Origin: Bacteroidales bacterium
GTDB lineage: Bacteria; Bacteroidota; Bacteroidia; Bacteroidales; P3
Reading direction: 5' to 3'
Assembly: GCA_017449975.1 (NCBI GenBank)
Contig: JAFSYK010000088.1
Coordinates: 1-64,000 of the forward strand
DNA: 64,000 bases
A model generated the notes under the pieces. The model was not told the DNA's origin, searched no databases, and saw nothing but the letters and a program-made list of their open reading frames with translations. Shown in pieces: positions 4,986 through 63,650 of this stretch. Both the position numbers and the translations under genes were made by a program. Position 1 is the first letter of the stretch; the number at the start of each line of letters is the position of its first letter.

Positions 4986-5030
4986 ACTTCACAACTTCAC
5001 ATTTTCACAATTTCACGAATCACTAATCAC
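4986..5030. repeat. Degenerate 8-bp tandem array
   Basis: Units of the form AACTTCAC, ATTTTCAC and AATTTCAC repeat with an 8-base period, then run into a 7-base GAATCAC/TAATCAC pair. The reverse complement of the same 8-mer type recurs at 10561-10588. It lies in the probable 5' leader of pepD. Confidence 0.7.
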
Positions 5031-5068
5031 ATATTCAAGCCATCAAATAATCACTAATATTTCAAATT

Positions 5069-6520
5069 ATGACTATTAAAAATCTGGAACCGAAAGAGCT
5101 GTGGAACAATTTCTACCTGCTCACCCGTTGTCCGCGTCCGTCCAAACACGAAGAGATCGTCCGCGACTTCCTCGTGAAATGGGCCAAGGAGAAAAAGATT
5201 GACTGCCGCGTCGACAAGGTCGGCAACATCATCATGACCAAGCCCGCCACCAAGGGCATGGAGAACCGCAAGACCGTAGTGCTGCAGGCCCACATGGACA
5301 TGGTGCCCCAGGCCCGTGCCGGTAAAAAGCACGATTTCCTGAAAGATCCCATCGAGACCAAGATTGTCGAGGATTGGGTCTACGCTTGCGACACCACGCT
5401 GGGTGCCGACGACGGCTTGGGCGTCGCTGCCATCATGGCGGTCTTTGAGTCCAAGAAGCTGAAACACGGTCCGCTCGAGGCCCTCATCACTACCGACGAG
5501 GAGACCGGCATGACCGGCGCTTTCGGCCTGAAAAAAGGCGAGCTGAAGGGTGAGTACCTCCTCAACCTCGACTCCGAGACCGAGGGCGAGCTCTATGTGG
5601 GCTGCGCCGGCGGTATCGATGCCACCCTCTCTGTCCCCTACTCCACCGAGAAAGCACCGAAAGACTATGTCGCCTACAAGCTCACGCTGGGCGGTCTCAA
5701 GGGCGGTCACTCGGGCATGGAAATCAACACGGGTCGCGCCAATGTCAACAAGCTGCTCTTCCGTCACCTGCGCTGGGTGGCCGAATGTGGTCTGCGTCTC
5801 ATCAGCGTCAGCGGCGGCAATATGCGCAACGCCATCCCGCGCGACGGCGAGGCGGTCGTCGCCTTCCCGAAGGAGCATGAGAGGTGCATCCTCGAGGAGT
5901 TCGACAAAGTGGCGGGATGGGTCAAGAAAGAGCTGGCCTCCGTCGAGCCCGACTTCTTCATGAAATACGAACGCGTGCGCATGGCCACGAAGGTCATCAC
6001 CGACGCCGACACCCAGAAGATCATCAACCTCATGATGGTGGCTCCCAACGGCGTCATCCGCATGAGCCGCGACATGGAAGGCTTGGTCGAGACCTCGCTC
6101 AACCTCGCCATCGTCAACACCAACGGCAAGAACTTCACCATCCAGGCCCTGCTGCGCTCCTCCGTCGACACCGCCAAGGAGGCGTTGGCCGAGCGTCTGG
6201 TCTGCCTGGCCGAGCTGGCTGGCGGCAGCTGCAAGCTGAGCGGTGCCTACCCCGGCTGGAAGCCCAACATGCAAAGCAAGCTTTTGAAGACCATGAAGGC
6301 CACCTACAAGAAGCTCTACAAGAAAGAGCCCGCCGTCGTGGCCATCCACGCCGGTCTGGAGTGCGGTCTGCTCGGCGGCAAGTACCCCGACATGGAGATG
6401 ATCTCCTTCGGCCCCACGCTGCAGAGCCCCCACAGTCCCGACGAGCGTGCCAACATTCCCAGCAGCAAGAAGTTCTACGACTACCTGGTGGCTACGCTGG
6501 AAGCCATCCCCGAGAAGTAG
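5069..6520 (+). CDS. pepD: Aminoacyl-histidine dipeptidase (M20 family, PepD)
   Basis: A cytosolic metallodipeptidase of 483 residues, the usual length for PepD. Metal-binding and catalytic signatures of peptidase family M20 are visible: H75 and D77 in QAHMDMVPQ, D114/D115 in LGADDGLG, the E144/E145 pair in TTDEETGM, and a late GLECGLLGGKYP segment. The family cleaves Xaa-His and other dipeptides with di-zinc chemistry. The start is ATG 5069 in a long AT-rich leader. The stop codon lies inside the first copy of a 33-bp tandem duplication that separates it from the next gene. Confidence 0.93.
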   Translation: MTIKNLEPKELWNNFYLLTRCPRPSKHEEIVRDFLVKWAKEKKIDCRVDKVGNIIMTKPATKGMENRKTVVLQAHMDMVPQARAGKKHDFLKDPIETKIVEDWVYACDTTLGADDGLGVAAIMAVFESKKLKHGPLEALITTDEETGMTGAFGLKKGELKGEYLLNLDSETEGELYVGCAGGIDATLSVPYSTEKAPKDYVAYKLTLGGLKGGHSGMEINTGRANVNKLLFRHLRWVAECGLRLISVSGGNMRNAIPRDGEAVVAFPKEHERCILEEFDKVAGWVKKELASVEPDFFMKYERVRMATKVITDADTQKIINLMMVAPNGVIRMSRDMEGLVETSLNLAIVNTNGKNFTIQALLRSSVDTAKEALAERLVCLAELAGGSCKLSGAYPGWKPNMQSKLLKTMKATYKKLYKKEPAVVAIHAGLECGLLGGKYPDMEMISFGPTLQSPHSPDERANIPSSKKFYDYLVATLEAIPEK

Positions 6521-6581
6521 TAAAAACAACCAAAGAACACCAACCATGAGTAGTAAAAACAACCAAAGAACACCAATCATG
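6516..6581 (+). repeat. 33-bp tandem duplication across a gene junction
   Basis: Units at 6516-6548 and 6549-6581 are identical except for one base. Each runs from AGTAGTAAAAAC to an ATG. The first unit contains the pepD stop codon and an ATG at 6546. The second contains the ATG at 6579 used by the lipoprotein gene. The duplication therefore copied a stop codon, spacer and start codon, adding 11 codons in frame if the first ATG is used. Confidence 0.95.
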
Positions 6582-7001
6582 AAAAGATTAGGTATTGCCT
6601 TGATGGGTGTCCTCATGCTGTTTTCCGCATGTTCCAAGGACGACAGCTCGTCTGGCTCAAACAGCGGTGGCGGGAGCAGCAGCAACCCGCTCATCGGCAT
6701 GTGGAGTCAAGACGCGGTAGAACACAGCACCAATGCATCGCGCGACGAAGTGTACCAGTTCATCGACGACAACACCGTCATCAGCTATGGCCGCTGTTGG
6801 AACACTAGCGCCGAAAGCTATGGATTGACGAAAAGTCCGCTACCTGACCACTATGGCTGGTACTACTTCGACATCAACAGAAAGATGTACACCTATGCGC
6901 TCGTCGACAACAAGGTATACGTCACCGAGGGCGTCATCATGACGCTGATGGGCGACGAACTCTACATCGACGGAGTCACACGACCGCTGCACCGCTTCTA
7001 A
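6579..7001 (+). CDS. Small lipoprotein, lipocalin-like fold possible
   Basis: A 140-residue exported lipoprotein. The signal peptide MKRLGIALMGVLMLFSAC ends in a lipobox with the acylated cysteine, followed by an acidic/serine linker (SKDDSSSGS) and a Gly/Ser-rich stretch. The mature part opens with NPLIGMWSQDAVEH and is rich in alternating aromatic and polar residues, resembling small lipocalin-like Bacteroidota lipoproteins. No specific function can be given. An in-frame ATG at 6546 would add 11 residues before the signal sequence and arises from the tandem duplication, so 6579 is preferred. Confidence 0.75.
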   Translation: MKRLGIALMGVLMLFSACSKDDSSSGSNSGGGSSSNPLIGMWSQDAVEHSTNASRDEVYQFIDDNTVISYGRCWNTSAESYGLTKSPLPDHYGWYYFDINRKMYTYALVDNKVYVTEGVIMTLMGDELYIDGVTRPLHRF

Positions 7002-7029
7002 CTGCAGAGATAGCGTACATCGAGAAGAG

Positions 7030-7064
7030 TAGCGGGTCGGGAAACGATGTTTCCCGACCCGCTA
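7030..7064. terminator. Strong hairpin terminator
   Basis: A perfect 15-bp stem, 7030-7044 pairing with 7050-7064, encloses a 5-base loop (CGATG). CAGTTTTC follows on the plus side. It sits between convergent genes and can serve the lipoprotein gene, and possibly the opposite transcript. Confidence 0.85.
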
Positions 7065-7083
7065 CAGTTTTCACGTTCTCAAT

Positions 7084-7572: not shown

Positions 7573-7633
7573 TTCATTGACAGAAGCAGAACCTCCTGCG
7601 TTATTCAAGTTACTAGATCACTGGAATGCCAAT

Positions 7634-8419
7634 CTACGCCTTCCCGCCTTTGAACAGGTGCCCGATCCATTGGCGGTTGAGGCGGGCTATGTGTTGGCGT
7701 TTGATCTGCTTGGGGCACTCCGCCTCGCAGGCGAAGGTGTTGGTGCAGCTGCCGAAGCCCAGCTCATCCATCTTGCAGACCATCTTGCGCACACGGTCGG
7801 CCGCCTCGGGCTCGCCCTGCGGCAGCAGGCTGAGGTGGCTGACCTTGGCGGCGACGAACAGCATGGCGCTGGCGTTCTTGCACGCCGCCACACAGGCACC
7901 GCAGCCGATGCAGGCGGCGGCATCCATCGCCTCGTCGGCCTTATGCTTCGGAACCAGGATGGAATTGGCGTCGGGGGCGCCGCCCGTGGTGGCACTGATA
8001 TAGCCGCCGGCCTGGATGATTTTATCAAAAGCACTGCGGTCGACCACCAGGTCTTTCACCACGGGGAAAGCCTTGGCACGCCACGGCTCGACCCAGATTT
8101 CGTCGCCGTCGTGGAAACGGCGCATGTGCAACTGACAGGTGGTAACACCATCGTCGTTGCCGTGCGGCCGGCCATTGATATAGAGGCCGCACATGCCACA
8201 GATACCCTCGCGACAGTCGTTGTCGAAACAAACGGGATGGGCTATGGGTTGTTGATTTGTTGAATTGTCGGATTGTTGATTTGAAATGATTTGCTCATTG
8301 AGGATGTCCAGCATCTCCAGAAAGGAGCAGTCGGGCGAGATGTTCTCCAAAGAGTAGGTCTCAAAACCACCTTGAGCCTGAGCATTGGCCTGTCGCCAGA
8401 TATGTAGGGTAAAGTTCAT
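7634..8419 (-). CDS. frdB: Fumarate reductase/succinate dehydrogenase iron-sulfur subunit
   Basis: A 261-residue electron-transfer subunit of the quinol:fumarate reductase. The [2Fe-2S] cysteines are C64, C69, C74 and C77 ([14 protein letters not shown]). The [4Fe-4S]/[3Fe-4S] ligands are in [12 protein letters not shown] and [10 protein letters not shown]. It passes electrons between the membrane cytochrome b (FrdC) and the flavoprotein (FrdA). It is the last gene of the frdCAB series on the minus strand. Residues about 42-58 ([14 protein letters not shown]) are encoded by an 8-bp tandem array at 8249-8292 and look like an inserted low-complexity loop just before the first cluster. Confidence 0.95.
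8249..8292 (-). repeat. 8-bp tandem array inside frdB
   Basis: On the plus strand the units are GTTGATTT, GTTGAATT, GTCGGATT and GTTGATTT, about five imperfect copies with an 8-base period. Read on the coding strand they contain no stop codon and give a Gln/Asn/Ser/Thr-rich stretch (residues about 42-58 of FrdB). Confidence 0.8.
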
Positions 8420-8433
8420 ATTTCTTGGAGCTT

Positions 8434-8469
8434 ATTAGACCCATTGGACCAATGGGACCAATTAGACAT
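8434..8469. repeat. 9-bp tandem array between frdA and frdB
   Basis: Four units with period 9: ATTAGACCC, ATTGGACCA, ATGGGACCA and ATTAGACAT. Closely related 9-mers occur upstream of the FKBP gene (28469-28495), rdgB (38061-38087) and dnaA (about 34916-34985). Confidence 0.85.
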
Positions 8470-8493
8470 AGTATAATAGTATAATTATTTTAC

Positions 8494-10518
8494 TTATTTA
8501 TAATTACGGTTGACAATCTGAATATCCTCGTAGTGCAGCGGTTCGGTGTGCATGGTCTCAGCCTGGTTCTCACCTTGGTACTCCCATGCACCGACGAACA
8601 TGAAATGGTCGTCGTCGCGCAGCGTCTCGCCATCGGCCGTCTGGTGTTCCACACGGAAGTGGCCGCCACAGCTCTCCTCGCGCTGGGTGGCGTCGGCCAC
8701 GATGAGGCGTGCCAACTCGAAGTAGTCGGCCAGATGCCACGCCTTCTCCAACTCGGGATTCATGCTGTCGGCCGTTCCCGGCACACAAACGTGCTGGTAG
8801 AAATCAGCCTCCAGCTCGGCAACCTTCTGGGCGGCAGTCGCCAGACTCTCCTTGCTGCGGGCCATGCCGCAATACTCCCACATGATGCGGCCAAGGGCCT
8901 TGTGGTAGTGGTCGACGGAGTGAAATTGAGAATTGAGAGTTGAGAGTTGAGAGTTGGCTGGCGCGTCGGAAATTCCGGAATCTCCGGATAATCCGAATTT
9001 TCCGGCAATTCCCATCAACCTCTCTATTCTCTCCCGCACCCGCTGCTCGGCGGCGTCGAAGGCGGGGGTGTTGCTTTCTACCTTCCCAACGTAGATCTGG
9101 TCGGCCAGGTAATTTTGAAGGGTATAGGGCAGCACGAAGTAGCCGTCAGCCAGGCCCTGCATCAGCGCCGAAGCACCGAGACGGTTGGCACCGTGGTCGC
9201 TGAAGTTGGCTTCGCCTGCGGCGAAGAGTCCCGGGATGGTGGTCTGCAGCTCGTAGTCCACCCACAAGCCACCCATAGTATAATGGACGGCGGGGTAAAT
9301 CATCATCGGCTCCTCGTAGGGGTCGGTGTCGACAATCTTCTGATACATCTGGAACAGGTTACCATATTTCTGTTCCACAACATCGCGTCCCAGTCGCTGG
9401 ATGGCGTCACGGAAATCGAGATAGACAGCCAGTCCGGTACCCACGCCGTAGCCAGCATCGCAACGCTCCTTGGCGGCACGCGACGCCACGTCGCGCGGCA
9501 CCAGGTTGCCGAAGGCCGGGTAGCGACGCTCGAGGTAGTAGTCGCGGTCCTCCTCGGCAATGTCGTTGGGACCCTTCTCGCCACGACGTATCGCCTCGGC
9601 ATCCTCTTTGCGCTTGGGCACCCAGATGCGGCCGTCGTTGCGCAGACTCTCGCTCATCAGCGTCAGCTTCGACTGATAGTCGCCGTGTACGGGAATGCAG
9701 GTGGGATGTATCTGCACATAGCAGGGGTTGGCAAACAGCGCACCCTGACGGTGGCATGCCCACGCCGCACTGACGTTGCTGTTCATGGCATTGGTAGAAA
9801 GGTAGTAGACATTGCCGTAGCCACCCGACGCCACCACCACCGCATGGGCGGCATAGCGTTCGAGGTCACCCGTCACCATGTTGCGCACGATGATGCCGCG
9901 CGCCCGCGCCACACCCTGTGCGTCGTTGTCGACCACTAGATCCAGCATCTCGCTGCGCGTGTGCAGCGTCACGGTACCACGGCTGATCTCACGACTCAGC
10001 GCGCCGTAGGCTCCCAGCAGCAGCTGCTGACCCGTCTGGCCACGAGCGTAGAAGGTGCGGCTCACCTGTGCGCCACCGAAGGAGCGGTTGTCGAGCATAC
10101 CGCTGTAGTCGCGGGCAAAAGGCACGCCCTGCGCCACACACTGGTCGATGATGTCGCCACTCACCTCAGCCAGACGATACACGTTGGCCTCGCGGGCGCG
10201 GTAGTCACCACCCTTGATGGTGTCGCGGAACAGGCGCATCACGCTGTCGCCGTCGTTCTGGTAATTCTTGGCGGCGTTGATGCCACCCTGCGCGGCGATA
10301 CTATGGGCCCGACGCGGCGAGTCTTGCAGACAGAAGATGTCGACATGGAATCCCAGCGCACCCAGCGACGCAGCCGCCGAGGCACCCGCCAGACCCGTAC
10401 CTACGACAATAATGTCGAGCTTGCGCTTGTTGGCAGGGTTCACCAGTTTCTGATTGGTCTTGTAGTTCGTCCACTTCTGTGCCAGCGGACCTTCAGGTAT
10501 TTTGGAATCAGGAAACAT
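8494..10518 (-). CDS. frdA: Fumarate reductase/succinate dehydrogenase flavoprotein subunit
   Basis: A 674-residue catalytic subunit of quinol:fumarate reductase, facing the cytoplasm. A dinucleotide-binding [10 protein letters not shown] lies near residue 40. The covalent-FAD histidine is H72 in [11 protein letters not shown]. Later come HPTCIP and the FAD-binding [14 protein letters not shown]. It is about 25 residues longer than I expect. The extra residues (about 505-532) are encoded by a composite of 9-bp units ([12 protein letters not shown]) and 7-bp units ([10 protein letters not shown]) at 8924-9006, inserted before the [18 protein letters not shown] helix. Gene order frdC-A-B is typical of the phylum. 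It works with NQR upstream to reduce fumarate with NADH. Confidence 0.95.
8924..9006 (-). repeat. Composite 7-bp and 9-bp array inside frdA
   Basis: Positions 8924-8956 contain TGAGAAT/TGAGAGT heptamers in plus-strand reading. Positions about 8967-9006 contain 9-bp units related to TCCGGAATT. Both are open on the frdA coding strand and encode [10 protein letters not shown] and a glycine/serine triplet series. The same heptamer lies in the adjacent frdA-frdC gap. Confidence 0.88.
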
Positions 10519-10520
10519 TC

Positions 10521-10669
10521 AAATTGAGAATTGAGAGTTGAGAATTGAGAATTATTATTTGTGAAGTTGTGAAATTGTGAAGTTGTGAGCTTAACGTCTT
10601 CGCATCTTAACATCTTAACATTTTATTACTGGCCACTATTTACTTTTTAGTTTTTACTTTTTAGTTTAA
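10521..10669. repeat. Mosaic of three repeat arrays between frdC and frdA
   Basis: The 152-base gap is almost entirely repeats: TGAGAAT-type heptamers at 10521-10553, GTGAAGTT/GTGAAATT 8-mers at 10561-10588, CATCTTAA-type 8-mers near 10604-10622, and TTTTTAG/TTTTTAC heptamers at about 10643-10669. The last array touches the frdC stop codon (TAG at 10671-10673). Confidence 0.85.
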
Positions 10670-10670
10670 A

Positions 10671-11618: not shown

Positions 11619-11624
11619 TGGGTT

Positions 11625-11730
11625 GTAAGATGTTAGATGTTAGATATTAATTCGTTAATTCATTTTTTCGTTATAACGTTATAACGATATTACGTTATAT
11701 CGATCATTCTCAAATTTAAATTTTCAATTT
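11625..11730. repeat. Repeat-filled gap between nqrF and frdC
   Basis: Contains AGATGTT/AGATATT heptamers (about 11628-11650), TTCGTTAA-type units, GTTATAAC-type near-palindromes (11670-11702), and heptamer-like TTTTCAA units (11716-11732). The last of these supplies the nqrF stop codon. I see no good TAnnTTTG promoter, so frdCAB may be read through from nqr. Confidence 0.6.
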
Positions 11731-14282: not shown

Positions 14283-14932
14283 TGGACAGCCTCCTTTCTA
14301 AAATCAATCTGATTACTCTGAATATTCGGAGTAATCAGATTTTTGTAGTTTTCATACGCCTTTTCCAGCATCTCCGTCACGCCGTTGGAGGTCATGGTGG
14401 CACCACTGATAACATCCACTTGGTAAGGGCTGTTATTGTCTGCGTTCTTTTTGAGACAGATAGGTTGGCTGTCCATACGCTTGCCGATAAAGCGGGCGGC
14501 AAACTTGTCGGTGGCAATCTCACCACCCAAGCCCGGGGTCTCGCCCTGATGGTCGAAAACAGCACCTACCACCGTGGCATTACTGTCGAGTGCCAGATAG
14601 CCCCAGATGGGACCCCAGAGACCACTGCCTTGTATCGGGATGACTATGCCACCGTCGTAACGCAGGGGCGTACCGCCGTGTATGTCTTCTTCTGCCGATG
14701 ACCCATTGGGGGACTCCCCCACCGTAAAATATTGTTCAAACAGCTCTGCGGCATTATCGCGCGAAGCCTCCACACCGATGGTCTTCAGTATCATCTGTTT
14801 CTGCTCGGCCGCTTTGTTGCGCTCTTGGCGAGGCTTGAGGCTGACGCTCACAATGGTAAGCAGCAGCGCCGCCACCGTCACCAGTGCCGCCGCATAGAAA
14901 AGCATATAACGGTTGGAGAAGGTCTTAGCCAT
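14279..14932 (-). CDS. nqrC: Na+-NQR subunit C, FMN-binding
   Basis: A 217-residue subunit with one N-terminal transmembrane helix and a periplasmic FMN-binding domain. The flavinylation motif is SGATMTSNGVTEML (residues about 180-193), where FMN is attached to threonine by ApbE in characterised complexes. Other family marks are GSGLWGPIWGYLALD and HQGETPGLGGEI. It overlaps nqrB by 8 bases and nqrD by 4. ApbE is not in the window. Confidence 0.95.
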   Translation of the reverse strand: MAKTFSNRYMLFYAAALVTVAALLLTIVSVSLKPRQERNKAAEQKQMILKTIGVEASRDNAAELFEQYFTVGESPNGSSAEEDIHGGTPLRYDGGIVIPIQGSGLWGPIWGYLALDSNATVVGAVFDHQGETPGLGGEIATDKFAARFIGKRMDSQPICLKKNADNNSPYQVDVISGATMTSNGVTEMLEKAYENYKNLITPNIQSNQIDFRKEAVQ

Positions 14933-16172
14933 TATGGGCCTCCTTTCTTGTAGTTCTAGATTGTCTAGATAATCTAGATTGTCTAGATTTGATATTTCTG
15001 GCGATGACGCAGTGGTCTATCAGCGGTGCCATGCAGTTCATAAACAAGATACTCAGCATCATGCCTTCCGGATAGGCGGGGTTGCACACGCGCAGCAGTA
15101 CGGCGAAAGCGCCCACCAGCAGACCGTAAATCCAACGGCCTGTGCGTGTCTGCGCCGCCGTCACCGGGTCGGTGGCCATGAAGACCGCACCGAAGGCGAA
15201 GCCACCTAGCAACCAATGGTAGTAGAAAGGCAGCTGGAGGTAGATGTGCGTTGAAAGCTGAGCGTCGAGCGATGGAAGCAGGTTGAAGAACAGGCCCATC
15301 AAGCCGCCGCCGAGGAAGACACCCAGCATGATACGCCATGAGGCAATGCCGGTGAATAGCAGCAGCATAGCACCAAATGCGATGGCGATGAAGGAGGTCT
15401 CGCAGGTGCTGCCGGGGATGGTACCGACCAATAGGTCGAGTACTGAATACTGAGAATTGAAAACTGAGAAATCCGCACCGGCGGAAAGTGCGGCGAGGGG
15501 TGTCGCCCCCGTGATGGCGTCGCTGCCCCAGAGGTCGTGGGCAATCCACACCGTGTCGCCCGACATATTAGTGGGATAGGCGAAGAAGAGAAACGCCCGT
15601 GCCACCAGTGCCGGATTGAGGAAATTCATGCCCGTTCCGCCGAAAGCCTCCTTGGCGATAATCACAGCAAAGGCCACCGCCAACGCCAGTTGCCACAGCG
15701 GCGTGGTGACTGGCACAATCATCGGTATCAGAAGTCCCGTCACCAGGTAGCCTTCGTTGACTTCATGGTGGCGCACCTGGGCAAAAGCGAACTCGATGGC
15801 CAAACCCACGACATAACTCACCACAATCATCGGCAGCATACGCAGGAAACCGAACCACCAACAATCGAATAATTGAGAGTTGAGAGTTGAGAGTTGAGAG
15901 TTAGCGGCAAAGTGTTGGTAGCCGATGTTCCACATACCGAACAGCAAGGCCGGCAGCAGTGCCAGCACCACGGTAAACATGGAACGTTTCATATCGACAG
16001 CGTCGCGCACATGGGCACCGCTGCGGGTGACGGTCTTGCGCACAAAGGTAAAGGTGTGGAATGCCTCGTAGGTACTGCCGAGCCAAGCCCACTTGCCTTG
16101 GGGCTCATGCTTCTCAAACCAATCGGCCAACCGTTGATCCCACTTTCTCCCTCTCATATCTTTATCGCTCAC
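14925..16172 (-). CDS. nqrB: Na+-NQR subunit B carrying three repeat-derived segments
   Basis: A 415-residue polytopic subunit carrying covalent FMN and riboflavin. The flavinylation motif is DAITGATPLAAL, and further conserved segments are FGGTGMNFLNPALVARAF and GFAFGAVFMATDPV. Three stretches are encoded by tandem arrays: [10 protein letters not shown] near residues 91-101 (15870-15902), FSVFNSQYSV near 235-244 (15439-15470), and the C-terminal SRQSRLSRQSR tail (14956-14991). All three fall where family members have variable loops or a tail, so the core helices look intact. It overlaps nqrC by 8 bases and nqrA by 4. Confidence 0.95.
   Translation of the reverse strand: MSDKDMRGRKWDQRLADWFEKHEPQGKWAWLGSTYEAFHTFTFVRKTVTRSGAHVRDAVDMKRSMFTVVLALLPALLFGMWNIGYQHFAANSQLSTLNSQLFDCWWFGFLRMLPMIVVSYVVGLAIEFAFAQVRHHEVNEGYLVTGLLIPMIVPVTTPLWQLALAVAFAVIIAKEAFGGTGMNFLNPALVARAFLFFAYPTNMSGDTVWIAHDLWGSDAITGATPLAALSAGADFSVFNSQYSVLDLLVGTIPGSTCETSFIAIAFGAMLLLFTGIASWRIMLGVFLGGGLMGLFFNLLPSLDAQLSTHIYLQLPFYYHWLLGGFAFGAVFMATDPVTAAQTRTGRWIYGLLVGAFAVLLRVCNPAYPEGMMLSILFMNCMAPLIDHCVIARNIKSRQSRLSRQSRTTRKEAHNG
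14956..14991 (-). repeat. 9-bp CTAGATTGT array encoding the NqrB C-terminal tail
   Basis: Four units, CTAGATTGT, CTAGATAAT, CTAGATTGT and CTAGATTTG, on the plus strand. Because the period is a multiple of three, the coding strand gives a strict tripeptide repeat (SRQ-SRL-SRQ-SRT) with a basic character, just before the nqrB stop codon and the overlapping nqrC start. Confidence 0.92.
15439..15470 (-). repeat. Heptamer array inside nqrB (central)
   Basis: Imperfect heptamers (ACTGAAT, ACTGAGA, ATTGAAA, ACTGAGA on the plus strand), related to the ATTGAGA family, in the stop-free direction for nqrB. They encode FSVFNSQYSV after SAGAD. Confidence 0.78.
15870..15902 (-). repeat. Heptamer TTGAGAG array inside nqrB (N-terminal third)
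   Basis: About four and a half near-perfect copies of TTGAGAG. On the coding strand they read as the heptapeptide N-S-Q-L-S-T-L, repeating every 21 bases. This is the clearest coding example of the heptamer and nearly matches the copy in frdA. Confidence 0.93.
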
Positions 16173-17599
16173 ATGCCCTCCTTTCTACACAGCTCCAGTG
16201 CCGTGCGTATCAGGGTCTGTATCTCCGTTTTCGACGGGTCAACAAACTCACACAATGCCATATCCTCTGGCTCAATCTCATAGATACCCAACTGTTCCAA
16301 TCTTTCTATATCGCCTATCACTGCCGCCTTGATTAGCTCCATGGGATAGATGTCGAAGGGGAAGACCCGGTCGAACACCTCGCCGAACACCAACGGACGC
16401 ACGTCGCCATGCCGCTGGGTGTCGAATTCGGGGGCCAACGCTGGCTTCTGTTTCGACTTCCGTTTCGATCCAAAACCCGAAAGGAAAGTGCGCGAAAAGC
16501 TGTATTTATGCAGGCCAAGCAGCAGCCAGCCCAGAAAGTCGTAGTAGTCGCCCTCGGGCAACAATGTCAGTTCGTTGGTGTGGGCATGCAGAAATCCGTC
16601 GGCGGCCACCTGAACACCCGTCAACACATTGCCGGCAATAACACGCGGCTGCGGTTCCGCAGCATCGATCTGTCCTTCCAGCAGCGGCGCCACGCAGGTG
16701 CCCGCCACCGTGCGGTAGTAGCGCGGATGCTGCGCGGCGGGACCACACACCGCCACCACACGCTCGGGCGCATAGCAGCCCGTCAGCGCCAATCGGCCGA
16801 TGTTGGCCACATCCTGTGGATCGACCGTCCAAACGACTTCTCCTTTGTTGATAGGGTCAATGGCGGCAATCTGCGTTCCCACATTGCCCGAAGGATGAGG
16901 GCCACGCACCACATGCAGCTTCACTAAACCTCTATTTTCAAAATCGGCCAGCAGACGGCCGATAATACTCTGTTCGTTGTACGAGACATGCACCGGGGCC
17001 GGTGCCACCAACTCGCCCAGTGCCTCCAATCCGCGACAAAACTCCTCTTCCCTACCCCGCAGCGTGATGTCGCAGCGCGCCGCCAGCGGCGCGCTGTCGC
17101 AGCAAGAGACAAACAACGCCTTGGGCTTCACATCGGGTGAAGCCATCGTGCCAAAAGGCCGCTGAAGAATGAAGGGAAGGATTGGAAATTGAGAATTGAG
17201 AATTGAGAATTTGAGGGTTTGTGGGTTTGTGGGTTTGTGGGTTTGTGGGTTTGAACCCTCAAGCGAAGCGAACCCTTCAACCTTCAAGCGAAGCGAACCC
17301 TTCAACCCTCTCTCCACCACCACCGCCAGTATCTGGCGGCGTTCACCGCGCACGATGGCTTTCACCGTGCCCGACACAGGCGAGAGCAGCCGCTGCCGCT
17401 CATCTTTCTTGTCGCACAGCAACGGGTCGCCGGCTTTCACACTGTCGCCCTCCTGCACCAGCAAACGGGGAGTGAAACCCACATAGTCCGTCGGACAGAC
17501 CGCACAGCACTGCACGTCACGGACGTCGACCAACTCATCGACCGCCGCACCCGGCAGTGGAATATCCAATCCCTTTTTTATCTTGATGATATCCGACAT
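16169..17599 (-). CDS. nqrA: Na+-NQR subunit A with repeat-derived linker
   Basis: A 476-residue subunit, the first gene of nqrABCDEF. The N-terminal barrel-sandwich part (KKGLDIPLPG, then VQEGDSVKAGDPLL and SPVSGTVKAI) and the later GPHPSGNVGTQI segment are characteristic. The protein is cytoplasmic and binds quinone at the membrane interface. The linker at residues about 97-140 is encoded by three repeat types in a row (17185-17312) and reads GLKGSLRLKVEGFASLEGS, NPQTHKPTNPQT and [12 protein letters not shown], before the conserved QRPFGTMASPD. The start is ATG 17599, with a -7 box TATCTTTG at 17629-17622 on the minus strand. Confidence 0.95.
   Translation of the reverse strand: MSDIIKIKKGLDIPLPGAAVDELVDVRDVQCCAVCPTDYVGFTPRLLVQEGDSVKAGDPLLCDKKDERQRLLSPVSGTVKAIVRGERRQILAVVVERGLKGSLRLKVEGFASLEGSNPQTHKPTNPQTLKFSILNSQFPILPFILQRPFGTMASPDVKPKALFVSCCDSAPLAARCDITLRGREEEFCRGLEALGELVAPAPVHVSYNEQSIIGRLLADFENRGLVKLHVVRGPHPSGNVGTQIAAIDPINKGEVVWTVDPQDVANIGRLALTGCYAPERVVAVCGPAAQHPRYYRTVAGTCVAPLLEGQIDAAEPQPRVIAGNVLTGVQVAADGFLHAHTNELTLLPEGDYYDFLGWLLLGLHKYSFSRTFLSGFGSKRKSKQKPALAPEFDTQRHGDVRPLVFGEVFDRVFPFDIYPMELIKAAVIGDIERLEQLGIYEIEPEDMALCEFVDPSKTEIQTLIRTALELCRKEGM
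17185..17312 (-). repeat. Three-part repeat block inside nqrA
   Basis: Plus-strand order: ATTGAGA heptamers (17185-17212); GTGGGTTT 8-mers, about five copies (17215-17253); and two copies of a 25-base unit containing AAGCGAAGCG (at 17261 and 17286). A diverged copy of the 25-base unit lies in the intergenic region near 21651-21682. All parts are open on the nqrA coding strand. Confidence 0.9.
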
Positions 17600-17629: not shown

Positions 17630-17710
17630 CGAAAAATATTAAGATTTCGTGACCGGTGATCTGTGACCAGTGACACGATACGGGTCACGCATCACAGGTT
17701 ACAGGTCACG

Positions 17711-17763
17711 AATTTCAATTCTCAATTTTCAATTTTCAATTCTCAATTCTCAATTTTCAACTC
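17711..17763. repeat. ATTGAGA heptamer array overlapping the aspA 3' end
   Basis: About seven imperfect heptamers (TCAATTC, TCAATTT on the plus strand). The aspA stop codon (17743-17745, TGA on the minus strand) and its last four or five codons (LKIEN) lie inside the array. Confidence 0.9.
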
Positions 17764-19164: not shown

Positions 19165-19176
19165 GGCTATTCGAGT

Positions 19177-19211
19177 AACGTTTAACGTTTAAGGTTTAAC
19201 GTTTAATGTTT
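19177..19211. repeat. AACGTTT heptamer array
   Basis: Five consecutive 7-bp units: AACGTTT, AACGTTT, AAGGTTT, AACGTTT, AATGTTT. The inverse unit recurs at 19489-19514 and 58927-58968. It sits in the aspA leader. Confidence 0.95.
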
Positions 19212-19418
19212 GTATATAATAATCAAGAATTTGCAACAAGCATCGTTGCACCTTGGAATTCTTTTGCAAAAATACACTTTTTCTCACTAACTAATAGACG
19301 GATTGAGAAGTTAGCGGCTAGCTGGCTGACGCAAACAAAAGCTGACCGCTAACTGCTAACTACTGACCGCTTAATATCAATTTTCAATTCTCAATTCTCA
19401 ATTCTCAATTATAATTAG

Positions 19419-19426: not shown

Positions 19427-19528
19427 CAAGTTCAAAGTGTTTGTCAACTTTCCAACAAAAAAATAGAAACGAAAAAAATAGAATCATTAAACGTTAAACC
19501 TTAAACGTTAAACGAAAAAACCAAAGAT

Positions 19529-21601: not shown

Positions 21602-21780
21602 GATTAGGAGTTTTAACAAACTAAAAGTAAAAACTAAAAACTAAAAAAGGGTTGAACGGTTCACTTCGCTTGAAGGTTGATAGGTTGATAAGGATTGCGA
21701 ATCGTATAAACGTATCAACATTAAACATATCAACATAAACCCTCAAACCCTTTAACCCTTTAACCTTAAAACCCTTCAAG
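21602..21780. repeat. Repeat-filled leader of the nucleotide-sugar dehydrogenase gene
   Basis: Contains CTAAAAG/CTAAAAA heptamers (about 21621-21646), a diverged copy of the 25-base unit found in nqrA (GGTTGAACGG to CGCTTGAAGG, 21651-21682), and CCCTTTAA-type 8-mers near 21740-21778. No gene is visible. Confidence 0.75.
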
Positions 21781-24071: not shown

Positions 24072-24132
24072 GGGAAAGGGTTGGAAGGGTTAAGGGTTGG
24101 AGGGATTTTAATAACGAAATTATTTATTCCTC

Positions 24133-24153
24133 TAATCACTATTCACTAATCAT
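24133..24153. repeat. GTGATTA heptamer array at the ftsB-like gene 3' end
   Basis: Three units on the plus strand: TAATCAC, TATTCAC and TAATCAT. The stop codon of the ftsB-like gene (24146-24148, TAG on the minus strand) is part of the array. Similar arrays occur at 60454-60488 and 63630-63650. Confidence 0.85.
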
Positions 24154-25960: not shown

Positions 25961-26006
25961 AGAACTAACGAATTCACAAATTTCCAAATTAACAAATTCA
26001 AATATT

Positions 26007-26321
26007 ATGACCATTCATGTTACCGAGGAGCAGTTTGCTTCTATTCTGAACACCGACAAGCCCGTTTTGGTTGACTGCAGCGCCACGTGGTGCGGACCCT
26101 GCAAGGCTTTGGCTCCCATCGTCGACGAGGTGGCCAACGAGTATGAAGGTCGTGCCGTGGTGTGCAAGATGGACGTGGAAGAGTGTCCCGAAATCTCGAT
26201 GCAGTACCGCATCCGCAACGTGCCCACCGTCCTCTTTTTCAAGAACGGCGAGGTGAAGGACAAGAGTGTGGGTTTGGTGCAGAAAGCCACCCTCACTGAG
26301 AAACTGGATGCCCTGATGTAA
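26007..26321 (+). CDS. trxA: Thioredoxin
   Basis: A 104-residue cytosolic thioredoxin of standard size. The redox site is W28-C29-G30-P31-C32, with the cis-proline segment NVPTVLFFKNG. It reduces protein disulfides using thioredoxin reductase. I use ATG 26007; upstream in-frame codons lie in the hairpin leader. The DUF58 gene starts 11 bases after its stop codon and is probably co-transcribed. Confidence 0.95.
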   Translation: MTIHVTEEQFASILNTDKPVLVDCSATWCGPCKALAPIVDEVANEYEGRAVVCKMDVEECPEISMQYRIRNVPTVLFFKNGEVKDKSVGLVQKATLTEKLDALM

Positions 26322-36471: not shown

Positions 36472-37041
36472 ATGGGCAAAATAGCTTTCAAGCCGGGAAC
36501 GATGATATACCCGCTGCCGGCCGTGATGGTGAGTTGCGGCGACAGTGAAGAGAACTACAATATTATTACAGTGGCATGGACGGGCACTATCTGCAGTGAC
36601 CCGCCCATGTGCTATGTGTCCATACGCAAAGAGCGCCACTCGCACGCCCTCATCAGCCGCTGCAGCGAATTTGTCATCAACATCACCACCGAGGCGCTGG
36701 CCTTTGCCACCGACTGGTGTGGTGTGAAGAGCGGCCGCAACTTCAACAAGTTCCGTGAAATGCATCTGACCCCAGAGCCTGCACAAATGGTGAAAGCACC
36801 GCTGATAGCGGAGAGTCCGCTGAACATCGAGTGCCGCGTGGTGGAGGTCAAAGAGCTGGGATCGCACGACATGTTTATCGCCCAGGTGGTGGCCGTCAAT
36901 GCCGACGAGCAATACATCGACAAAGGGACCGGCGCCTTCCAGCTGAACCATACTGTACCCCTCGCCTTTTCGCATGGAAAATACTACACATTGGGCGAGA
37001 AACTGGGCGGTTTCGGCTTCTCGGTGAAGAAAAAGAAATAA
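36472..37041 (+). CDS. Flavin reductase family (flavoredoxin-like) protein
   Basis: A 189-residue protein of the FMN-binding split-barrel flavin reductase group. It opens with KPGTMIYPLPAVMVSCG and has the typical TVAWTGTICSDPPMCYVSIRKERHS segment and ECRVVEVKELGSHDMFIAQVV. Family members bind FMN and transfer electrons or reduce flavin; the partner is unknown. It begins 6 bases after dnaA, so it is probably co-transcribed. The C-terminus is lysine-rich (SVKKKK). Confidence 0.88.
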   Translation: MGKIAFKPGTMIYPLPAVMVSCGDSEENYNIITVAWTGTICSDPPMCYVSIRKERHSHALISRCSEFVINITTEALAFATDWCGVKSGRNFNKFREMHLTPEPAQMVKAPLIAESPLNIECRVVEVKELGSHDMFIAQVVAVNADEQYIDKGTGAFQLNHTVPLAFSHGKYYTLGEKLGGFGFSVKKKK

Positions 37042-37122
37042 GGGTTAAAAGGTTTAAGGGTTAGATGTTCGACTGATAAATTGACGAATTAACACGTATA
37101 CGAATTAACGAATTCTCTCATC

Positions 37123-38060: not shown

Positions 38061-38090
38061 ATTAGACCTATTGGACCTATTAGTCTTATA
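38061..38090. repeat. 9-bp tandem array upstream of rdgB
   Basis: Units ATTAGACCT, ATTGGACCT, ATTAGTCTT and a partial copy, period 9, immediately before the rdgB start at 38104. Confidence 0.85.
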
Positions 38091-42010: not shown

Positions 42011-42241
42011 AGAAGCTGTTTAAATTTAATTCAATGTTTTTCTTAAAGTACATGAACGGCATCTTTTTCACCTTTCCTCAGTCACAATTTCCTCTCCTTC
42101 TTCGAAAAGTAGGAACTTTTCGAGGCTCGGCACACACACAAGTCCACAGGACTTGTTCACACCATTGTTCCATCGGAAAGGCAAAAAATCTGCTCGCCAA
42201 TGTCCATAATAAAACTCATCAATCAAACTTAAACAGCTTCT
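42011..42241. mobile_element. 231-bp MITE-like element with 13-bp terminal inverted repeats
   Basis: The ends AGAAGCTGTTTAA (42011-42023) and TTAAACAGCTTCT (42229-42241) are perfect inverted repeats. Internal hairpins are at 42103-42122 (8-bp stem, loop AGGA) and 42138-42156 (8-bp stem, loop ACA). A partial second copy in opposite orientation is at 1-139. No open frame looks like a transposase, although a 63-codon minus-strand frame spans most of it. No convincing target-site duplication is visible. Confidence 0.8.
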
Positions 42242-43471: not shown

Positions 43472-43516
43472 CCTATAGGTCTTATAGGACTTATAGGTCT
43501 TATAAGACTTATTGGT
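43472..43516. repeat. 9-bp CTTATAGGT array between korA and korB
   Basis: Five units with period 9: CCTATAGGT, CTTATAGGA, CTTATAGGT, CTTATAAGA, CTTATTGGT. The array abuts the korA stop codon (43516-43518) and fills most of the spacer. Confidence 0.9.
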
Positions 43517-57237: not shown

Positions 57238-57245
57238 TTATTAAT

Positions 57246-57317
57246 GAGGAGTTAAAGGGGAAATTAAATAGGAAGTTAAATGGGAAGTTAAAGTGGAAGT
57301 TAAAAAGGGAGTTAAGT
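57246..57317. repeat. 12-bp tandem array
   Basis: Six 12-bp units ending in GTTAAA/GTTAAG or ATTAAA, for example AGGAAGTTAAAT and GGGAAGTTAAAG. They fill the 89-base gap between the subtilase and the DUF6427 gene. This is the longest unit of the arrays in the window. Confidence 0.92.
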
Positions 57318-57326
57318 AAATAAACG

Positions 57327-58312: not shown

Positions 58313-58921
58313 ATGCTGCAATCGCACTATACTCCTCATGCCGTGGAATGCGGCTGTGACGAAGCCGGAAGAGGCTGTCTAGCCGGACCTGTTTACGCCG
58401 CCGCCGTCATTCTCCCGCGCGACTACAGCAATGCGGAACTCAACGACTCCAAACAGCTCACCGCACGGCGACGCACGGCGTTGCGCTCCGTCATTGAGCG
58501 GGATGCGGTGGCATGGGCGGTGGCATCGGTGTCGGCGGAGGATATAGACCGGATGAACATCCTGCGCGCTTCGATGCACGCCATGAATCTGGCCATCCAG
58601 CAACTGACGACGCAACCCGAACTGCTGCTCATCGACGGCAACCGTTTCTACAACGAGACGCAAATACCGTATCAGTGCATCGTGAAAGGCGACGCAACAT
58701 ACCTGTCCATCGCGGCAGCATCCATTCTGGCCAAGACCTACCGTGACGAAGAGATGGAGCGTTTGGACGCCGAATACCCCTATTACGGATGGCGCAACAA
58801 CAAAGGCTACCCTACGGCCGCCCACTATCGCGCCATCGAAGAACACGGCATCAGCCCCTGGCACCGGAAAAGCTACCGCCTGGAGCGACAACTGACTTTG
58901 GAATTGAGAGTTGAGAATTGA
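58313..58921 (+). CDS. rnhB: Ribonuclease HII
   Basis: A 202-residue cytosolic endonuclease that removes ribonucleotides and RNA from RNA-DNA hybrids. The acidic active site starts with D16-E17 in [19 protein letters not shown], continues with [10 protein letters not shown] and the third aspartate in LLIDGNRF, then [23 protein letters not shown] use ATG 58313, 5 bases after the preceding stop codon. The last residues (ELRVEN) and the TGA stop codon lie inside an ATTGAGA heptamer array. Confidence 0.94.
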
Positions 58922-58968
58922 AAATTAAACGTTAAACGATAAACGATAAACATTAAACGTCATACGAT
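58901..58968. repeat. ATTGAGA array followed by AAACGAT array
   Basis: Heptamers ATTGAGA, GTTGAGA and ATTGAAA at about 58901-58926 end the rnhB gene. They switch directly into six heptamers AAACGTT, AAACGAT, AAACGAT, AAACATT, AAACGTC and ATACGAT (58927-58968) that end 3 bases before the next start codon. Two repeat families therefore fill the whole gap. Confidence 0.93.
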
Positions 58969-58971
58969 ACC

Positions 58972-59559: not shown

Positions 59560-59573
59560 GACAACGGTGAGCT

Positions 59574-60461
59574 ATGAGTAAATTTGCATTCACAGGCACG
59601 GGTGTGGCACTTATCACCCCGTTTCGCAAACAGGACACCATCGACTTCAGTCGATTAGAGAATCTGATAAACACCATCATCGCCTCCGGCGTAGAGTATA
59701 TTGTGGCATTGGGCACCACCAGCGAGGCGGCCACGATGACCGACAATGAGCGCAGCGCCCTGCGCGACTTCATCATTGAGACCACTGCCGGTCGCGTGCC
59801 GGTCGTACTGGGCGTAGGCGGCAACAACACCCGCCAGATTGCCGACACCATTGCACAGACCAACTTCGACGGCATCTGCGGCATCCTGTCGGTGGCCCCC
59901 TACTACAACAAACCCAACCAAAAAGGTCTGGTGCAGCACTTCAGCCACATCGCCGAAGTGTCGCCGGTACCCGTCATCCTATACAATGTGCCGGGACGCA
60001 CCGGTGTGAATATGAATGCCGAGACCACCCTTCAGATTGCCCACGATTGTCCCAATGTGGTGGCCATCAAAGAGGCCAGCGGCAATCTGGCACAGGTGAT
60101 GGAGATTATCCGCAACAAGCCTGCCAATTTCCACGTCATCTCGGGCGACGACGCACTGACCTATCCCATGATAGCGCTGGGGGCCTCGGGTGTGATCTCC
60201 GTCATTGCCAACGCACTGCCGCAGGAGATGTCGAACATGGTACGTCTGGCGCTGAAAGGCGACTGGAAGAAAGCGCTGCCGCTGCACTACCGCATGCTGC
60301 CGCTCATGAACGCCCTGTTCGAGGAAGGCAATCCCACCGGTGTAAAGGAGCTACTGGAAATCAAAGGACTTATATCGAACAACCTGCGTCTGCCGTTGGT
60401 GAAAGCCAGCAAGCAGCTGCAAAACAAAATCAGCGCACTGTATCATTCGTTTAGTGAATAG
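59574..60461 (+). CDS. dapA: 4-hydroxy-tetrahydrodipicolinate synthase
   Basis: A 295-residue cytosolic TIM-barrel enzyme that condenses pyruvate with aspartate semialdehyde, the first committed step to diaminopimelate and lysine. Motifs: GTGVALITPF, ALGTTSEAATM, YYNKPNQKG, VPGRTGVNMN and the Schiff-base lysine in NVVAIKEASGN (about 163). Length is normal. The final residues FSE and the TAG stop codon belong to a GTGAATA heptamer array. Confidence 0.96.
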   Translation: MSKFAFTGTGVALITPFRKQDTIDFSRLENLINTIIASGVEYIVALGTTSEAATMTDNERSALRDFIIETTAGRVPVVLGVGGNNTRQIADTIAQTNFDGICGILSVAPYYNKPNQKGLVQHFSHIAEVSPVPVILYNVPGRTGVNMNAETTLQIAHDCPNVVAIKEASGNLAQVMEIIRNKPANFHVISGDDALTYPMIALGASGVISVIANALPQEMSNMVRLALKGDWKKALPLHYRMLPLMNALFEEGNPTGVKELLEIKGLISNNLRLPLVKASKQLQNKISALYHSFSE

Positions 60462-60538
60462 TGAATGGTGATTAGTGATTAGTGATTAGACAAATGATTT
60501 GCGCCATTTTTTAGTTTTTACTTTTTTAGTTTTAACTA
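60454..60538. repeat. GTGATTA array and TTTTTAG array after dapA
   Basis: Five heptamers, GTGAATA, GTGAATG and three GTGATTA (60454-60488), start inside dapA and include its stop codon. At 60508-60538 TTTTTAG/TTTTTAC-type heptamers follow and end just before the next gene. Confidence 0.9.
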
Positions 60539-60548
60539 ACTGCTGAAT

Positions 60549-61840: not shown

Positions 61841-61883
61841 GAACGGGATAATCAACAGTTTAAGAAGACAGTAGTTTATACCG

Positions 61884-63560
61884 ATGAAAAATAATAATTT
61901 CAGAAAGACCGTATGGGCCGGTCTTTTGGTTTTTAGTTTTTACTTTTCACCTGCCATGTCCCAAGCACAGGGTGTGCTGGGCGGACATGTAACAGGCAAT
62001 ATGCAGCTCGACATGCAGATGTCGCGTGAGGACAGCACCATCGGTGCACCCGACGTGCCCGAACAGATGCTGATGAACGCCCGTGCCGACATTCTCTATA
62101 CCAACGGTGCCTTCGACGCAGGTCTGCGTTTCGAAGCCTACACCAATCCGCTGTTGGGTTTTGACAAGAACTACCGCGGACAGGGTATCGCCAACTATTT
62201 CGTCAGCTACCACAACGACCGCATCAGTTTCACCGCCGGCTACTTCTACGAGCAGTTCGGCAACGGCATGATTCTGCGCACCTACGAGGATCGCAACATC
62301 GGCTACGACAACGCCCTCTTCGGCTTCAACGTCCACTACCAGCTGATGCCCGGCATCATGCTGAAGGGTGTCATCGGCAAGCAACGCTACTGCTGGACGC
62401 TGGGCAACGGCATCGTGCGCGGTGTCGACGCCGAGGTGCAGCTGAACAGCCTCATCCCCGCCTGGGCCGACAAAGAGCTGCGCGTCACGCTGGGTGGCGG
62501 TGTGGTGAGCCGCTACGAGCCCGACACCACAATCTTCTCCTCGCCGGGCTACAAGCTGAATCTGCCGCTGAATGTCGGTGCCTTCAGTACCCGCATGGAT
62601 CTGGCCTATCGCAATTGGAACCTCAATGTCGAATATGCCCGAAAGGGTCAGGACCCGTCGTTCCTGAACAACTACATCTACCGCTACGGACAGGCGCTGA
62701 CCGTCAACGCCTCCTATGCCACCCGCGGATTCAGTGTCAACCTGCAGGCGAAACGGGTCGACAACATGGTGTTCAAATCGGAGCGCGCCGCCACCGACGC
62801 CAACGGGGCGAAGCTCTATATCAATTACATCCCCGCCATCAACAAGGAACATACCTACGCGTTCCTTTCGATGTACCCCTACTCCACACAGGCACAAGGC
62901 GAGATGGGACTGCAGGGCGACATCATCTGGCGTTTGCCCAAAGACGGCTTCTTGGGTGGCACCGATATCCACCTCAACAGCTCCGTCATCACCGCCCTCG
63001 ACATGAAGGTGGTAGGCGGCATGGGAACGGAGGGCTACACCTCTGATTTCTTCGGCACCGGCGACCTCTACTATGGCGACGCCAGTCTGGAGGTCACCCG
63101 TAAAATCAACAGCCAGCTCAAGCTGACGGCACTCTACGGCTACCAGGTGGTGAATCCCGAGATAGACGGACACAGTGGCGCACTGCACCACAACAATGTC
63201 GTCGTGGGCGACCTGCTGTGGAAAATCAACAAAAAGAACGCCCTGCGCTTCGAGGCCGAATGGATGGGCAGCGACAGCCGCTACACCCAGGAGGTCGACG
63301 ACAAACGCTGTGGCGACTGGATCATGGGTCTAGTGGAATACAACTTCACCTCGCGCTGGTTTGTCTCCGTCAGCGACCAGTACGCCTACCACGACGGCAC
63401 AGGCAACTACTACAACATCAGCCTGGGCTACACCCACAACGCCACACGCATCCAGCTGGGCTACGGCAAACAGCGGGAAGGCATGATCTGCATCGGCGGC
63501 GTGTGCCGACAGATGCCCGCACTGAACGGATTGACACTGACATTGTCGACAAGTTTCTAA
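61884..63560 (+). CDS. DUF6029-type outer-membrane protein
   Basis: A 558-residue protein with a signal peptide ending near SQAQG, then many amphipathic beta-strands with aromatic girdles (for example FVSYHNDRISFTAGYFYEQFG and GDWIMGLVEYNFTSRWFVSVSDQYAYHD), ending in FSTSF-like LTLTLSTSF, as expected for a beta-barrel. It matches the DUF6029 family, function unknown. Part of its signal peptide (VFSFYF) is encoded by a TTTTTAG/TTTTTAC-type heptamer stretch (61928-61949) that resembles intergenic arrays. Confidence 0.82.
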   Translation: MKNNNFRKTVWAGLLVFSFYFSPAMSQAQGVLGGHVTGNMQLDMQMSREDSTIGAPDVPEQMLMNARADILYTNGAFDAGLRFEAYTNPLLGFDKNYRGQGIANYFVSYHNDRISFTAGYFYEQFGNGMILRTYEDRNIGYDNALFGFNVHYQLMPGIMLKGVIGKQRYCWTLGNGIVRGVDAEVQLNSLIPAWADKELRVTLGGGVVSRYEPDTTIFSSPGYKLNLPLNVGAFSTRMDLAYRNWNLNVEYARKGQDPSFLNNYIYRYGQALTVNASYATRGFSVNLQAKRVDNMVFKSERAATDANGAKLYINYIPAINKEHTYAFLSMYPYSTQAQGEMGLQGDIIWRLPKDGFLGGTDIHLNSSVITALDMKVVGGMGTEGYTSDFFGTGDLYYGDASLEVTRKINSQLKLTALYGYQVVNPEIDGHSGALHHNNVVVGDLLWKINKKNALRFEAEWMGSDSRYTQEVDDKRCGDWIMGLVEYNFTSRWFVSVSDQYAYHDGTGNYYNISLGYTHNATRIQLGYGKQREGMICIGGVCRQMPALNGLTLTLSTSF

Positions 63561-63629
63561 ATCGAGCAGATAAGTAGTTAAGACAAACGAAAAAAAATGC
63601 CGTTAATTTGTATATGTGTTAGTATTGTC

Positions 63630-63650
63630 TAATCACTATTCACTAATCAC
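63630..63650. repeat. TAATCAC heptamer array
   Basis: Three units TAATCAC, TATTCAC and TAATCAC, ending 2 bases before the Omp28-like start codon. Same family and phase as 24133-24153. Confidence 0.9.

Follow-up and report, generated by a model that had tools for sequence, protein, structure and literature searches.

Intergenic arrays of 7-11 bp units have been catalogued in bacteria for years, and the mechanism behind them is unsettled. The short tandemly repeated repetitive (STRR) heptanucleotides of cyanobacteria such as Calothrix occur as several heptanucleotides per genome, and to our knowledge they have period 7 only, with no loop insertions or cassettes known. Miniature inverted-repeat transposable elements (MITE) and repetitive extragenic palindromic (REP) elements are dispersed, small, intergenic and found in both orientations. 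Here, a window of 64,000 nucleotides (the whole of positions 1 to 64,000 of contig JAFSYK010000088.1, assembly GCA_017449975.1, Bacteroidales bacterium) was analysed together with further stretches of the same genome and of its relatives. The window carries sdhA, an nqr operon and genes for proteins with type IX secretion tails. Many intergenic gaps and some core-enzyme loops of this genome hold imperfect repeats of 7-9 bp, apparently copied around the genome. Several heptanucleotides in one genome are a feature common to these arrays and to the STRRs; unlike MITE and REP elements, the array cassettes described below show no terminal inverted repeats or constant ends on inspection by eye.

Three published repeat systems come closest. 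GGGNATC heptamer repeats were described in Xanthomonas and Nostoc by Rehm et al. 2015 (PMC4692102), and they share with the present arrays a period of 7, few copies, intergenic location, inverted pairs, lengths that differ between relatives, a preference for co-directional gaps with under-representation in divergent gaps, and a G-rich strand that is sense after stops and antisense before starts (here p=1.9e-9 in the own genome, and in relatives a trend only, p=0.067). Unlike the GGGNATC repeats, the arrays studied here have more than ten units, mostly without G-runs, and several periods; their words are replaced between species, they form ordered cassettes, and they enter core-enzyme loops. 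MacGregor 2015 (PMC4679880) reported TAACTGA direct repeats in Beggiatoaceae, Cyanobacteria and some Bacteroidetes; five Bacteroidetes carry TAACTGA arrays, in one of them mostly forward ahead of start codons, and three have other heptamers alongside. The present TAACC-type words have in common with these repeats that forward heptamers lie a few nucleotides ahead of starts, and differ from that system, which has a single favoured word, in the word itself, in the many other words, the several periods and the additional arrays after stops. An original prediction, made from the window sequence alone, that nothing comparable was described in this phylum needs qualifying to the extent of these TAACTGA arrays; the matches listed from the open-access literature include no description of a multi-period system of arrays from Bacteroidales. 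The tandem repeats of the extrachromosomal archaeal Borg elements (Schoelmerich et al. 2023, PMC9879509) are likewise pervasive and fast-evolving, occupy gaps and genes and create new protein segments; they form perfect amino-acid repeats in genes, unlike the 7- and 8-bp units here, which run through all frames.

Tandem Repeats Finder (TRF), run on the window at score 30, returned 87 rows showing the unit families named in the original prediction or close variants of them. A stricter detector (match +1, mismatch -2, score at least 12) was applied to intergenic gaps of at least 30 bp, in the window and in sampled stretches of the same genome, over periods 4-25. It found 20 arrays in 10 of the 30 window gaps and another 8 in called genes, two of which are ordinary amino-acid repeats. 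Genes were called with a hexamer model made for this analysis; some gaps may hide missed genes, and strand counts inherit the error of the caller. The own-genome sample amounted to 764 kb of a 2.31-Mb draft assembly in 103 contigs. The first 413 kb yielded 121 arrays in 81 of 203 gaps (mean 0.7 over ten dinucleotide shuffles), and the full 764 kb yielded 230 arrays, spread over 148 of the 383 gaps (three dinucleotide shuffles: 2.7). Tandem units exceed chance, which is the criterion for 5-11 bp long simple sequence repeats. The arrays are confirmed as real and genome-wide and are not confined to the window: three tandem copies of ATTGAGA gave 23 matches at 18 genome places, and the reversed word gave none. 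The prediction that almost every larger gap is occupied was too strong: among gaps that are 100 bp or longer, an array is detectable in 7 of the 14 in the window and in 100 of the 222 sampled. That periods are mixed held for the main classes of 7 (73 arrays), 8 (38) and 9 bp (45), and much less for the predicted 12-bp class, which is minor (5/230). Double or sum periods of 14, 15, 16 and 18 bp make up 50 of the 230 gap arrays together, periods 10-12 are rare (8/230), and no array of period 4-6 was found in the 383 gaps.

When gaps were compared with gaps by the Basic Local Alignment Search Tool (BLAST), 228 of 383 had matches elsewhere, compared with 0 for shuffled gaps and 38 for reversed gaps, a control that retains simple composition; part of the matches are MITE-like elements. 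Families, grouped by our own rule of one or two mismatches, and transitions between sub-arrays recur far apart, and this recurrence requires copying between sites; transitions shared between different arrays are not produced by local slippage. Both the predicted sharing of families between distant sites and the view that slippage alone is insufficient are therefore borne out, and copying between sites is supported. With sharing this far above that of shuffled gaps, the original prediction also survives the refuting test proposed with it.

The shared blocks have an internal order. In 11 of 13 word-filtered gaps, TTCACAA-type words come after ATGTTAAG-type words, and the junction is marked by transitional units (by eye); four of these 11 cassette gaps open with AAAAACT words, several close with AATTCTC or AATCACT words, and flanking genes run in either direction. 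A near-complete cassette lies in the window between sdhA and the next upstream gene (10519..10670, minus strand), where the minus-strand order is AAAAACT, a spacer, ATGTTAAG, AACTTCAC, AATTCTC words and the sdhA ATG. A word scan covered 57 of the 383 gaps with at least two words, pairs being counted when they occurred at least four times. It placed ATGTTAAG ahead of AACTTCAC in 7/7 cases, RGWCY 9-mers ahead of AACCCT in 12/12 (with the orientation of the 9-mer mixed, 5:7), AAAAACT ahead of ATGTTAAG in 4/5 and ahead of AACTTCAC in 4/5 on the same strand, and GTTAGC words ahead of AATTCTC in 4/5; the associated test uses the commonest arrangement and is biased to small p-values. Neither constant ends nor terminal inverted repeats were seen by eye in the array cassettes.

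The closest SdhA matches, at up to 85% identity, come from Bacteroidales genomes that in most cases were sampled from the rumen, with Candidatus Colimorpha merdihippi at 78%, and a rumen habitat seems likely judging by these relatives. Eight genus relatives were sampled at 60-80 kb each, and nine genomes of other families of the order at 186 kb in total. All eight relatives contain arrays, seven of them with 11-bp units, amounting to 96 arrays in 61 kb of gaps (~2.3 expected) and unevenly spread (2 in G016, 3 in G008, 29 in G002); the nine other genomes gave 6 arrays in 17 kb of gaps (~1.6 expected). Words differ strongly between species and some are common to several. The closest relative by the ACS gene has 11-bp words such as ATCCTAAGCNN, the three-unit form of which occurs in 2 of 120 genus genomes, and three copies of TCTAGANNN occur in 33 of the 120, a single genome having as many as 205 overlapping matches. 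Triple ATTGAGA was found in 10 of 31 genomes, all within the 19 genus members, and the reversed control word is itself repeated in five genus members, the same or others. Triple AATTCTC was found in 3 of 296 genomes drawn from the phylum, two of them foreign with 1-2 matches each, and its reversed control in 4 of 296; foreign AATTCTC matches are no higher than the control.

Turnover of arrays could be followed at matching sites. The gap upstream of sdhA reads differently in the 23 relatives compared, several with other arrays (by eye). Among three sister species, in which neighbouring proteins are mostly 97-99% identical, one gap is entirely different in each and one divergent gap is conserved; one array hairpin has had both of its arms rewritten, and one of the species lacks two array hairpins. 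Sister species also differ by a new word in an 11-bp array at an unchanged site (AGGAGCAAC vs AGGAGTTGG) and by the length of one 11-bp unit in a hairpin array. Between two gene copies (L158 119-149 and L090) with 97-100% identical flanks, a 31-bp array of 7-bp period shows four differences with the period kept; this is local rewriting.

Arrays enter genes, as predicted, at low density: 679 kb of called coding sequence holds 99 arrays, some of them ordinary amino-acid repeats, or 0.15 per kb vs 2.9 in gaps. Words of AATTCTC type occur in sdhA, nqrA, nqrB and ~19 further called genes, and AATTCTC runs occur at 18 coding places. Sixteen word families were examined as exact runs, eight of which have one strand that is stop-free in all frames. 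Four of these eight are found in genes, 31 times and always in the stop-free orientation (partly by definition, because the gene caller needs open frames), and the other four are absent there; the eight families that have no such strand account for 3 occurrences in genes and 32 in gaps. Array units of 7 and 8 bp cycle through all frames.

In the core enzymes SdhA, NqrA and NqrB, the arrays occupy variable loops. An AACTCTC 7-mer array (8924..8956, minus strand), preceded by TCCGGANNN-like 9-mers (by eye), lies in sdhA (8494-10518) in a loop whose length varies among relatives. Most of the 19 aligned relatives (L030, which is incomplete, was left out) have a short loop where the window SdhA carries its TCCGGANNN-like and AACTCTC words, and L017, L018 and L031 have other repetitive words there (by eye). 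In nqrA (16169-17599), three arrays (AATTCTC 7-mer, CAAACCCA 8-mer and a 25-bp repeat; 17187..17307, minus strand) lie between the first two domains, as delimited by the NQRA_N and NQRA_2nd matches. NqrA has matches in 107 of 120 genomes; among the best 29 other loci, of which 28 are readable at the loop, segments made of heptamers are present in two (L215, L217). An AACTCTC 7-mer array (15873..15902, minus strand) occupies an NqrB loop; its counterpart in three relatives is about equally long and differs in sequence. The C-terminal tail of NqrB (gene 14925-16172), where the Pfam match ends at residue 394 of 415, is encoded across a TCTAGANNN 9-mer array (14955..14988, minus strand).

Within gaps, the arrays show positional and strand preferences. 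Array density per kb is 3.39 in co-directional, 2.15 in convergent and 1.75 in divergent gaps, with no significance attached. Under random placement (2000 runs), 7-mers crowd within 15 nt of a start (33/69 vs 14.7 expected; no run as high) and 9-mers within 15 nt past a stop (24/43 vs 13.0; no run as high), and 8-mers crowd at neither. In the own genome, G exceeds C in 39 of the 58 arrays closer to the stop vs 13 of the 78 closer to the start (p=1.9e-9). The comparison used 136 of the 184 co-directional arrays, the remainder being central or skew-free. AAAAACT words follow this polarity 7:0 near stops and 0:7 near starts, and TAACC-type heptamers are forward in 20 of 21 co-directional arrays, 11 of the 21 lying within 15 nt of a start. 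A cruder 25-nt tally in relatives gave 22 G-rich and 7 C-rich arrays after stops, and 16 G-rich and 9 C-rich before starts, the latter perhaps because short gaps put one array near both ends. C-rich arrays ahead of starts were accordingly rejected as a genus rule. Provision of in-frame stops was also rejected as the purpose of the 9-mers, as the frame of TAG, TAA or TGA is independent of the upstream gene (dominant stop frame 1 in 16 arrays, frame 2 in 9 and frame 0 in 7). Hairpins as a general principle were likewise rejected: in the own genome 2 of 205 arrays have an inverted partner in the same gap, against 6.3 expected. Inverted partners are enriched in relatives G010 (3 vs 0.4), G002 (5 vs 1.1) and G128 (4 vs 0.5), number 1 vs 0.1 in G016, and are 0 in each of G068, G039, G119 and G008. 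By eye, 11-bp arrays followed by their inverse form long hairpins in relatives (L171 12828-12916, the L129 upstream gap, L204 4631-4802), with variants mirrored between the arms.

The units themselves vary unevenly. Across 109 units, the TCTAGA core is 96-100% conserved and its NNN 63-78%, and the eleven other largest families are also uneven within the unit (chi-square p 2e-34 to 0.025, a test that assumes independent units, which these are not). Identical spacers two units apart are in excess in four of six core-defined families (observed/expected 26/18.2, 22/14.4, 20/13.5 and 8/3.7), with no such excess in TTGAG and CGGACCA, as if two-unit blocks had been copied; this fits the frequent period doubles. 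Avoidance of identical neighbours, suggested by TTCACA (8 vs 18.0) and ATCCTAAGC (1 vs 4.6), is not general and was rejected. Most own-genome families have no GGG tract on either strand; one is present in AACCC-type words and in the 12-mer.

The explanation to which we assign about half of our confidence is that these are dispersed arrays of short units (in this genome mainly 7-9 bp, in the genus 7-11 bp) which spread in blocks and, once in place, are remodelled. Arrays and ordered array groups recur at unlinked sites; matching sites of sister species gain, lose and rewrite arrays, with the period sometimes kept; and the places that arrays occupy are ones that the transcript or the protein can tolerate. 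New copies would come from ectopic conversion, with recombination or template switching acting between the short homologies that arrays carry, and lengths would change by one or two units at a time. Transcripts and reading frames would then impose a selective filter that leaves few arrays in genes and a polarity mirrored between the stop side and the start side; within genes it would leave stop-free insertions in loops and linkers. Loops of at least 7 bp should escape MutS, which would fit the intact mutS and the absent 4-mers and not the absent 5- and 6-mers. Loss of MutS was rejected as a cause, since all 31 genomes have MutS above the cut-off, in a search that covered MutS and no other repair gene such as MutL. 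Several observations weigh against block spreading with remodelling in place. The comparison of sites across species uses one genome per species, and polarity in the eight relatives is a trend only (15:9 vs 6:13, p=0.067). Structure is not uniform, as three relatives show an enrichment of inverted partners that the own genome does not. Word pairs B-H (2:2) and E-H (3:1) have no clear order. Among the matches listed for 296 queried arrays (113 flank pairs), none is an array insertion bordered by a clean empty site; those listed show only unit-step differences, replaced loops and ambiguous repeats. The contrast between TCTAGA and its NNN is more like an array of binding sites than neutral copying, and the absence of an overall lag-1 signal means that simple one-unit slippage is not visible.

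That contrast between core and spacer keeps alive the alternative that the arrays are selected regulatory elements, with cores that bind RNA or DNA readers in leaders before starts and 3' elements after stops, the words converging genome-wide through one or a few reader proteins. The position and strand rules point the same way, transcripts very probably include the arrays that lie within 15 nt of a start or stop, and MacGregor 2015 (PMC4679880) proposed such a role for TAACTGA. We nevertheless regard this as unlikely, given more than ten word families in one genome, the strong change of words between species, the transitions between different arrays shared among gaps, and the AATTCTC-type words in sdhA, nqrA, nqrB and ~19 other called genes. 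An element class in which ordered cassettes are moved by a transposase, reverse transcriptase or recombinase would account for cassettes in both orientations with consistent internal order, and true MITE-like repeats do coexist, one with a variable 9-bp array; the cassettes have no constant ends by eye, however, and neither enzyme family searched tracks with the arrays. Y1_Tnp (present in 23 of 31 genomes, absent from 8) and RVT_1 (present in 11, absent from 20) are each missing from array-bearing genus members and were rejected as movers (other transposase families were not searched), which makes this class a rather poor candidate. Four genomes without Y1_Tnp carry ATTGAGA arrays (G006, G008, G009, G017) and one carries the reversed word (G014), so that the co-occurring Y1 transposase expected of REP elements and REP-associated tyrosine transposases (RAYT) is lacking in these array-bearing genomes. 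The predicted single dedicated system with its own machinery is not borne out by the two enzyme families tested, and the original interpretation is partly supported overall. Local replication slippage alone, with similar words arising from base composition, would explain unit-step length changes and period doubles, and Mrazek 2007, as cited in PMC4679880 and PMC4692102, ascribes heptamer excess to slippage. Neighbouring units are more alike than permuted ones in 96 arrays chosen by lag-1 matching (0.878 vs 0.855), a choice that biases the value, but not over 131 usable arrays (0.834 vs 0.836). Identical words and transitions at many unlinked sites, the AATTCTC runs at 18 coding places, and above all the gap-gap sharing (228/383) strongly disfavour slippage alone, which we consider improbable. 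Chance or an artefact of the 103-contig draft is scarcely credible in view of 121 and 230 arrays vs 0.7 and 2.7 in shuffles, array lengths of mostly a few tens of bases, which would be under read length, and segments made of heptamers at the same NqrA loop in other genomes. Ordered short-period array cassettes that copy themselves between unlinked sites, keep their period while the genus rewrites the words, and add new stretches of protein to the loops of core respiratory enzymes could tentatively be seen as a new class of spreading DNA, a proposal we hold to be possible rather than probable. A genus of more than 100 sequenced species, in which words change, the rhythm stays and array groups recur in a set order, makes it testable how arrays spread, why the units are of 7-11 bp, and how new protein segments in enzyme loops originate from non-coding repeats.

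Elsewhere in the window, a compound 8-bp array in which ATGTTAAG words grade into TTCACAAC words lies at 4945..5016, and a TTGTTGAA 8-mer array (8249..8283, TRF score 42, under the threshold of the stricter detector) lies in called gene 7634-8419. A TGTTAGA 7-mer array adjoins 8-mer arrays of TTAATTCG and CGTTATAA at 11624..11698. Between nqrA and gene 17743-19164, a GTGACCA-type 7-mer array is followed by its inverse as an imperfect hairpin (17649..17710, arms by eye), and an AATTTTC/AATTCTC 7-mer array (17715..17741, minus strand) sits 1 nt past the stop of that gene. The divergent gap beyond holds TAACGTT (19176..19211) and AATTCTC (19377..19410) 7-mer arrays, and an AAACGTT 7-mer array (19487..19514, plus strand) ends 14 nt upstream of the gene start at 19529. 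The gap at 21623..21765 (plus strand) is a mosaic of AAAAACT after the stop, other words in the middle and AACCCTT 8-mers ahead of the next start.

Further along, a TATAGGTCT 9-mer array (43474..43512, minus strand) lies 3 nt past the stop of gene 43516-45357, and a GGAAGTTAAA 12-bp array (57252..57315, plus strand) lies in the gap 57238-57326. On the plus strand, AATTGAG and then AAACGTT 7-mer arrays (58904..58958) precede the start at 58972, a GTGATTA 7-mer array (60451..60489) spans the stop of the gene ending at 60461 and continues past it, and a TTTTTAG 7/8-mer array (60507..60537) lies 11 nt ahead of the start at 60549. Found by TRF only were short CTAATCA 7-mer arrays at 24132..24152 and 63629..63650 (the latter on the plus strand), a TAACAAAT 8-mer array at 25966..26007, TAAGGGTT and AATTAACG 8-mer arrays at 37039..37114, a ATTAGACCT 9-mer array at 38061..38083 downstream of the gene ending at 38049, and a TTTTAGT 7-mer array at 61924..61947 in the 5' end of called gene 61884-63560.

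Other dispersed repeats were seen alongside the arrays. A MITE-like repeat with GAAGCTGTTTAA inverted ends and a short form of ~164 bp occurs in the window (~42012-42241) and at L098, L108, L146 and L149, the window and L146 copies having an additional hairpin insert. A dispersed element of 101-112 bp (GGTAACCACTAATTATTCG...) is found at L096, L103, L104, L105, L148, L151, L157 and L158 in near-identical copies, the difference between them being a single 9-bp ATTCGTTAG unit. A second dispersed motif, around TTCGCTTCGCTTGAAGGTT, occurs in the window at 17254-17307 (in nqrA) and ~21660-21690 (in a gap), and a long gap at L096 (~6270-7070) holds a cluster of GGGGGC-rich and GTACGCCC repeats.

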